From Aeromicrobium sp. Root344 (GTDB lineage Bacteria > Actinomycetota > Actinomycetes > Propionibacteriales > Nocardioidaceae): a stretch of DNA of 64,000 nt. Made by a program: the position numbers and the translations under genes. How positions within the stretch are numbered: the stretch's first letter is position 1; every line of letters starts with the position of its first letter. The stretch is taken from positions 1,706,335 to 1,770,334 of the forward strand of contig NZ_LMDH01000001.1 of NCBI RefSeq assembly GCF_001425755.1. The letters run 5' to 3'. Below, piece by piece: positions 31,153 through 32,237 of the stretch. The notes beneath the pieces were generated by a model. It was not told the origin of the DNA, searched no databases, and saw only the letters and a program-made list of their open reading frames with translations.

Positions 31153-31683
31153 ATGAAGGTCCTGATCACGGGCGGTGTGCGCTCCGGCAAGTCGTTCCAC
31201 GCCGAGTCGTTGCTGCTCGCCGAGCCGACGGTCACCTACGTCGCGCCGGGGCCCGCGGCCGATCCGGTGTCGGATCCGGAGTGGGCGGCGCGGGTGGCGC
31301 GGCACCAGAGCCGGCGACCGTCGTACTGGAAGACCGTCGAGACGAGCGATCTCGGCGAGGCCGTGAGATCGGCCGACGGGGCGGTGCTGATCGACTGCCT
31401 CGGCACGTGGCTCACCTCGGTGATCGACGAGCTCGACGGTTGGGACGCGGTGCTCGAGGACTGGGAGCCGGTGCTGTTCGAGCGGCTCGACGAGGCACTG
31501 ACTGCGATCGCCGAGCACCAGGGCACCGTCGTGGCGGTGACCAACGAGGTCGGCATGAGCGTCGTGCCGGAGCACAGGTCCGGCCGGGTGTTCCGCGACC
31601 TGCTCGGCACGGTCAACCAGCGCGTCGCCGAGGAGTGCGACGACGTCATGCTCGTCGTCGCCGGTCGCGTGCTGCGGCTCTGA
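31153..31683 (+). CDS. cobU: Adenosylcobinamide kinase/guanylyltransferase CobU (176 aa)
   Basis: Bifunctional nucleotide-loop assembly enzyme. The P-loop GGVRSGKS (residues 7-14) phosphorylates adenosylcobinamide; RHQSRRPSYWKTVET carries the guanylated His of the transferase step; DCLGTWLTSVIDELDGW and TNEVGMSVVPEHRSGRVFRDLLGTVNQRVAEECDDV are strongly conserved in CobU. Its product feeds CobS. The gene is alone on this strand and followed by an unusual structured repeat. Confidence 0.95.
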   Translation: MKVLITGGVRSGKSFHAESLLLAEPTVTYVAPGPAADPVSDPEWAARVARHQSRRPSYWKTVETSDLGEAVRSADGAVLIDCLGTWLTSVIDELDGWDAVLEDWEPVLFERLDEALTAIAEHQGTVVAVTNEVGMSVVPEHRSGRVFRDLLGTVNQRVAEECDDVMLVVAGRVLRL

Positions 31684-31694
31684 CGCGCGTGGCG

Positions 31695-31784
31695 CGGTTT
31701 ACCAAGAGGTCAGGGCAAACAGGCACTCCTCACGGTGTGTGCGCCTTGAGGAGTGGCACAACGCCGTGACCTCTTGGTAAACCG
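31695..31784. repeat. Structured inverted-repeat element, about 90 bp
   Basis: An 18-bp perfect outer stem (CGGTTTACCAAGAGGTCA at 31695-31712 against 31767-31784) encloses a second perfect 9-bp stem (CACTCCTCA at 31724-31732 against 31747-31755) that itself holds a GGTG/CGCC mini-stem. The arms are more AT-rich than the surroundings. It fills the gap between convergent cobU and the acetyltransferase gene. It could be a bidirectional terminator, a REP/MITE-like mobile repeat or a structured RNA. Confidence 0.7.
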
Positions 31785-31790
31785 GTGACG

Positions 31791-32237
31791 CTAGAGGTCC
31801 TTGGCGAAGCAGAGGGACAGGTCGCTGCCGGCGTAGTGGCCGAAGCTGGGGATGCGGCGATAGCCGGCCGACTCGTACAGGCCGACGGCCTCGGGCTGAC
31901 GGTCACCGGTCTCGAGCAGCAGCCGGTTCCAGCCGAGCGATCGCGCGTGCTTCTCGAGGCCGTTGAGGACGATCCGCGAGAATCCACGACCGCGATGCTC
32001 GGTGGGCACGAACATCCGTTTGATCTCGCCGCTCGTCGCGTCGATCGCGCGCAGGCCGCCGCACGCCACGGCCTCGTCGCCGTCACGCAGGAGGAAGAAC
32101 GCCGTGATGTCGTCGGCGGTCGGAGCCGGACCGGGCTCGCTGTCGGGCGTGCCGTAGCGCGCCTCGATGTCGACTCGTTGGGCAGCGCGCAGGGCGACGG
32201 CGTCGGGGTCCGACCAGTCGCAGGGGGTGAGCTTCAC
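31791..32237 (-). CDS. GNAT family N-acetyltransferase (148 aa)
   Basis: Shows the acetyl-CoA-binding core of the family: GEIKRMFVPTEHRGRGFSRIVLNGLEKHAR, where HRGRGF is the Q/RxxGxG/A-type pyrophosphate loop, followed by LLLETGDRQPEAVGLYESAGYRRI. The acceptor substrate is unknown. It probably starts at GTG (32237). It lies downstream of cobS on the same strand, 12 bases after the cobS stop, so it could share that transcript, but nothing in it suggests a cobalamin role. Confidence 0.82.
   Translation of the reverse strand: MKLTPCDWSDPDAVALRAAQRVDIEARYGTPDSEPGPAPTADDITAFFLLRDGDEAVACGGLRAIDATSGEIKRMFVPTEHRGRGFSRIVLNGLEKHARSLGWNRLLLETGDRQPEAVGLYESAGYRRIPSFGHYAGSDLSLCFAKDL

Follow-up and report, generated by a model that had tools for sequence, protein, structure and literature searches.

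REP-like hairpins dispersed in actinobacterial genomes flank the gene of a predicted AbiEi-Vsr nuclease

RAYTs are said to stay in place while their repeats spread in trans, and for REP-like palindromes without a RAYT we know of no way to spread. In REP/RAYT systems, cognate palindromes surround a single-copy gene, further palindromes are dispersed elsewhere in the genome, and the families are lineage-specific (PMC3116915, PMC3733652, PMC8266576). CGTC-tagged REPs are also dispersed palindromes, with no known transposase (PMC3733652); the main text of that paper contains no mention of "actinobacteria", "Streptomyces" or "Mycobacterium". The element described here, taken by itself, is a REPIN- or MITE-like repeat.

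The window, a 64,000-nucleotide stretch of the 3.87-Mb genome of an Aeromicrobium (G000), contains a 90-bp hairpin at positions 31695-31784, as delimited in the earlier note. Its left outer arm, CGGTTTACCAAGAGGTCA (31695-31712, plus strand), forms the end of the element, and the right outer arm (31767-31784, minus strand) is a perfect inverted copy of it. This 18-bp outer stem encloses a perfect 9-bp inner stem (5' arm 31724-31732, 3' arm 31747-31755, both plus strand) and an apical 4-bp mini-stem with its loop (31734-31745, plus strand; pairing 31734-31737/31742-31745). All three stems had been described in that note, as had the AT-rich composition of the arms, whose G+C content is, by eye, lower than that of the flanks. 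The entire hairpin amounts to a single 41-nt imperfect inverted repeat, and the minimum free energy of positions 31680-31800 (-77.4 kcal/mol, z -9.8) was reached by none of 200 dinucleotide shuffles. It lies between the ends of two host genes: cobU (31153-31683, plus strand; Pfam CobU, E 2.5e-52), with its stop 11 bp before the element, and a convergent GNAT acetyltransferase gene (31791-32237, minus strand; Pfam Acetyltransf_1, E 2e-12), which ends 6 bp beyond it. A consensus scan of positions 31500-32000 for a stem followed by a U-tract found no site, and an intrinsic terminator was rejected on this ground as the identity of the hairpin. The sole Rfam match, mir-1296 (31698-31781, minus strand), scored 33.8 bits, where the gathering score is 100, and was discarded as spurious, a chance match of a hairpin.

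As a query against its own genome, the hairpin gave 41 alignments. The 18-bp arm occurred at 34 sites with up to 3 mismatches, 29 of these with 0 or 1 mismatch, and the reversed arm, used as a control, at no site in G000. In total, the genome contains 15 places, comprising 14 short copies and one long copy, and orthologous copies of the window element occur in two other species, so that the element is neither single nor unconserved. The short copies span 90-122 bp (the one at 1515600-1515687 is truncated) and have both ends, as REPINs do. Among the G000 copies the ends are almost invariant while the interiors drift: when 15 oriented ends are aligned, 15 of the first 18 columns show no variation, and the inner hairpin is variable. 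Covariation analysis of the copies gave no signal beyond shuffles for this inner stem, in which 85.8% of cells pair, compared with 36-53% when the alignment is slid. Covariation, which bears on the structured RNA that the earlier note named as its other possibility, is thus absent from the G000 family and present in a sister repeat family from a congener, G060. There, in 16 aligned of 21 available sequences, four base pairs carry changes on both sides, in 14 cells; of 500 shuffles, 2 and 0 attain these figures, and there are 0 when slid. These both-side changes suggest that the hairpin itself is maintained, although the relatedness of the copies calls for caution.

The window copy is an insertion. 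The element is present at this site in G000, G047 and G021, and in G024 only a few bases stand in its place between cobU and the GNAT gene. A related-locus search of genome contigs returned one locus, in A. ginsengisoli JCM 14732. Elsewhere in the genome, 11 of the 15 G000 places are occupied in G047 and 3 are unoccupied (838168, 2626625 and 1515600, the truncated copy, in whose place G047 has a different sequence of about 900 bp); the place at 1272143 was not located in G047 and stands outside this count. All 7 places checked in G021 are occupied, and one G047 copy corresponds to an empty site in G000. No target-site duplication was recognised at the window site or at two G047 empty sites, where the junctions of empty and occupied sites are too diverged.

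Positions relative to genes were assigned from crude gene calls based on codon usage. On these calls, all 14 short copies in G000 are intergenic and lie at most 21 bp from a stop codon, compared with 8.8% of intergenic positions in the window; 7 copies are in convergent gaps, 7 in tandem gaps and none in divergent gaps. The share of convergent gaps exceeds the 5 of 33 gaps in the window (Fisher p 0.018, with the crude calls). Placement is looser in G060 (8 tandem, 4 convergent, 3 divergent and 1 without a call among 16 copies); in G151 the sample of 20 fetched places, one of them a long element, gave 19 copies (7 tandem, 5 convergent, 1 divergent, 6 without a call).

The long copy of G000 (C1:3152176-3153402, 1227 bp) has the ends of the short copies, in inverted orientation, on either side of a single gene, which has 324 codons when counted from L025:1849. 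Other open reading frames of at least 80 aa in L025:1677-2903 overlap this gene in other frames. With this longer, gene-bearing version, the dispersed copies and the empty orthologous sites, the mobile repeat suspected in the earlier note is upheld. The neighbours of the long copy are liv transport genes (named by reading), and 13 congeners were searched for its site; 12 of the loci were compared with L025. Eight of these have 140-458 bp between two stops, without such an element; three (G012, G040, G046) have a remote homologue, and one (L229) is unreadable across. At this site and at 2626625, a hairpin resembling a terminator is seen by eye in relatives at the position of the G000 element. 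The remote AbiEi-like homologues of G012, G040 and G046 (L234, L231, L227) are at the livK-livF junction, where G000 has its long element, the one in L231 between arrays of a 21-nt unit that are inverted across the gene, and in G008 and G043 (L232, L230) the junction contains other repeated sequence without a gene. The livK-livF junction thus looks like a hot spot.

Pfam models matched the long-copy protein in its first part, with AbiEi_4 over the cut-off and AbiEi_1 below it, and left the rest without a match; no transposase domain was found by Pfam in this one scanned protein, and NCBIfam gave no match for it. An AlphaFold2 model built with 30 homologues had a mean pLDDT of 90.2, with a poorly modelled short stretch near K254. 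In VIA-align comparisons, residues 1-197 matched AbiEi (6y8q; Z 10.5, rmsd 6.8 over 182) and Rv2827c (1zel; Z 7.7), and residues 202-312 matched the catalytic domain of I-Bth0305I (3r3p; Z 11.5, rmsd 2.3 over 96) and Vsr (1cw0; Z 9.5). Only 1zel and 6y8q, both on the AbiEi side, passed E 0.001 in Foldseek, so that the nuclease match rests on the second look by VIA-align and on E205, D237, E248, D250 and K254, which are invariant across 30 sequences. The protein is thus probably a fusion of a DNA-binding half resembling the AbiEi antitoxin with a nuclease half resembling Vsr and I-Bth0305I, and nuclease activity is its probable function as predicted solely from the fold and the conserved acidic residues. 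The gene is under purifying selection at a dN/dS of about 0.13 (0.125-0.131 between G000, G047 and G021, with dS near 1 for the G021 pairs). Close copies number one each in G000, G047, G021 and G060, and the position of the gene is common to several species in some lineages; since the gene-bearing copy is single in these four genomes, movement of its own is not evident. The AbiEi models of PADLOC match the L026 protein (E 9.6e-18) and the L066 protein (E 2.4e-8), and defence-finding tools may therefore count such genes as AbiE systems.

Homologues of the gene were detected in 42 of 49 genomes of the genus (E 0.001) and, with a profile, in 206 of 296 genomes sampled from the class (E 1e-10). 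The association with repeats was examined at 54 loci of high-scoring homologues, each from a different genome (31 within the genus, 23 from outside it), by a gene-anchored scan for inverted repeats that score at least 15 and lie no more than 350 bp from the gene on either side. Inverted repeats flank the gene at 53 of the 54 loci, and at most of these the upstream repeat is 75-195 bp from the aligned start; L157, outside the genus, is without flanking inverted repeats. A score of 15 was reached in 2 of 1080 dinucleotide shuffles and in none of 51 flanks displaced by 350 bp. These two nulls are preferred, because related ends contaminate a third, made of mismatched flanks, in which 130 of 2862 score at least 15. 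Two remote homologues have another layout of repeats, with inverted tandem arrays in L231 and direct palindromes of 70 nt in L048. The latter is a second, remote homologue in G000 itself (C1:1330565-1331122, L048:1768-2906; 25% identity), and the two direct palindromic repeats that flank it are 96% identical, which suggests that G000 may contain a second repeat family.

Different lineages have different repeats, and for three families dispersed copies occur in genomes that carry the matching gene. Repeats of the G000 type were found in 3 of 39 genomes (G000, G021 and, as one weak match, G011) and, separately, also in G047. Of the 49 genomes of the genus, 6 have the end of the G060 type: it is present many times in G060, G041, G006 and G045, once in G061 and once, weakly, in G016; G060 has 17 scored places, including a long copy. 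The end motif of the third family, AATGATCAYGTTCASY, was counted with up to 1 mismatch in genomes of family f23 and occurs 31-296 times in 9 of 14 of them (107 in G151, 100 in G223, 123 in G183, 296 in G275 and 31-65 in G203, G136, G251, G102 and G120), 2-9 times in the five others, and 0-1 times in four genomes outside f23; the reversed motif gave 1 match in all 18 genomes together. In G000, G060 and G151, the dispersed repeats also flank the gene of the same genome. The short copies of the families differ in form, mostly with one end and about 105 bp in G060 (a second inverted end is present, by eye, in 2 of 16) and as single units of about 76 bp in G151. One genome, G045, has G060-type repeats (C1:846788, 767087, 723064) and no close homologue of the nuclease; either these are orphan repeats or the gene was lost.

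In several respects these repeats resemble REP/REPIN-RAYT systems: they are short extragenic palindromes in many copies (15 places in G000 and 17 in G060; the motif is matched 107 times in G151 and 296 times in G275), the gene is flanked by repeats dispersed in its own genome, and the families are lineage-specific. However, the enzyme here is the probable AbiEi-Vsr fusion and not a Y1/HUH transposase, and the units are about 76-122 bp. The Y1_Tnp domain (PF01797) was found in none of 11 genomes with the AbiEi-Vsr system, while the same search was positive in 5 of 14 control genomes, E. coli among them; a RAYT was rejected as the partner enzyme on this basis. CGTC-tagged REPs share the dispersal of palindromes without a RAYT partner, but neither a GTAG nor a CGTC tag was seen by eye at the unit ends in G000, G060 and G151, and a dedicated gene was found here. 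The N-terminal 197 residues share the fold of AbiEi and Rv2827c, of the AbiE type IV toxin-antitoxin systems, although the G000 element contains no partner AbiEii toxin gene and its protein has the extra nuclease domain. Likewise, the C-terminal 110 residues share the catalytic-domain fold of the EDxHD homing endonuclease I-Bth0305I and of Vsr, whereas the gene described here is not in an intron or intein, is fused to an AbiEi-like half and is flanked by dispersed hairpins.

The repeats could instead be operators of the AbiEi-like protein, which would then be a regulator or nucleoid protein, spread by other means and not moved by the nuclease. The promoters of AbiEi and Rv2827c contain inverted repeats to which the proteins themselves bind (PMC7319586), and the position of the repeat before the aligned start at most of the 53 positive loci would be consistent with such a role. 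However, a repeat is also present behind the gene at 53 of 54 loci, all 14 short copies of G000 are close to a stop codon and none is in a divergent promoter region, and operator binding would leave the nuclease fold superfluous; we consider this explanation unlikely. An ordinary cut-and-paste insertion sequence of 1.23 kb, with the short copies as deletion derivatives in the manner of MITEs, appears less likely still. The inverted ends common to the long and short forms, the single gene, the two-ended short copies and the polymorphic sites are what such a parent and its derivatives would show. Against this, the one protein scanned has no Pfam transposase domain, no target duplication was recognised, the gene-bearing form occurs once in each of the four genomes checked and shares its position across species in some lineages, and the short forms of G060 and G151 are mostly one-ended.

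The abutment of every short G000 copy on a gene end and the excess in convergent gaps (on the crude gene calls) would also be consistent with hairpins that the host maintains as bidirectional terminators or stabilisers of mRNA 3' ends, with their repetition secondary, and at two sites the element takes, by eye, the place of a terminator-like hairpin of relatives. This explanation accounts neither for the close identity of the 18-bp ends nor for the presence of an enclosed nuclease gene, and the hairpin has no U-tract and belongs to repeat families that differ between congeners. We regard it as the least probable of the three, and very improbable in itself.

We favour instead, with a probability of about 0.65, the interpretation that the window hairpin belongs, as a short and non-autonomous copy, to a REP/REPIN-like family that the AbiEi-Vsr nuclease moves in place of a RAYT. 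Proteins of the AbiEi family bind inverted repeats (PMC7319586), so that the N-terminal half may plausibly recognise the hairpin ends, where a nuclease of the Vsr type could cut. Under this interpretation, the nuclease half would cut at or beside the ends, probably with the palindromes extruded or single-stranded, and the end, once released or copied, would be joined by host repair into junctions directly downstream of stop codons. In this way the short copies would spread in trans, with the nuclease gene staying put, as is said of RAYTs. The results establish the dispersal and insertion of the repeats, their association with the gene, the lineage-specific pairing of the two, the placement at gene 3' ends and the purifying selection on the gene; the role of the nuclease as mover, through recognition, cleavage and joining, is what we infer. 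Against the interpretation count that neither a target-site duplication nor a step of movement was seen and that the gene-bearing copy is single in G000, G047, G021 and G060. The orphan repeats of G045, the exception at L157, the mostly single-ended copies of G060 and G151 and the lack of inner-stem covariation in G000 also count against it.

The open-access PMC literature returned papers on RAYT/REP, AbiE and Vsr, none of which, among those listed, joins AbiEi or Vsr proteins to dispersed palindromes. As a system, the repeats have an enzyme that is unrelated to those of the known repeat families and whose role is putative, and the recurrence of the pairing of repeat and enzyme in many actinobacteria suggests a kind of selfish DNA that is apparently undescribed. 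A candidate enzyme of unrelated fold is now attached to REP-like palindromes. We lean slightly towards the broader view that this selfish DNA is widespread in actinobacteria, where the AbiEi-Vsr nuclease, matched by type IV antitoxin models, would replace the RAYT and both maintain and spread lineage-specific REP-like hairpins into gene 3' ends, in up to about 300 copies per genome and with the chemistry of no described transposase family. If this is true, a PD-(D/E)xK-type nuclease would do transposase-like work, and genes that match antitoxin or defence models, such as the AbiEi models of PADLOC, would be mobile-element nucleases miscalled as parts of toxin-antitoxin systems.
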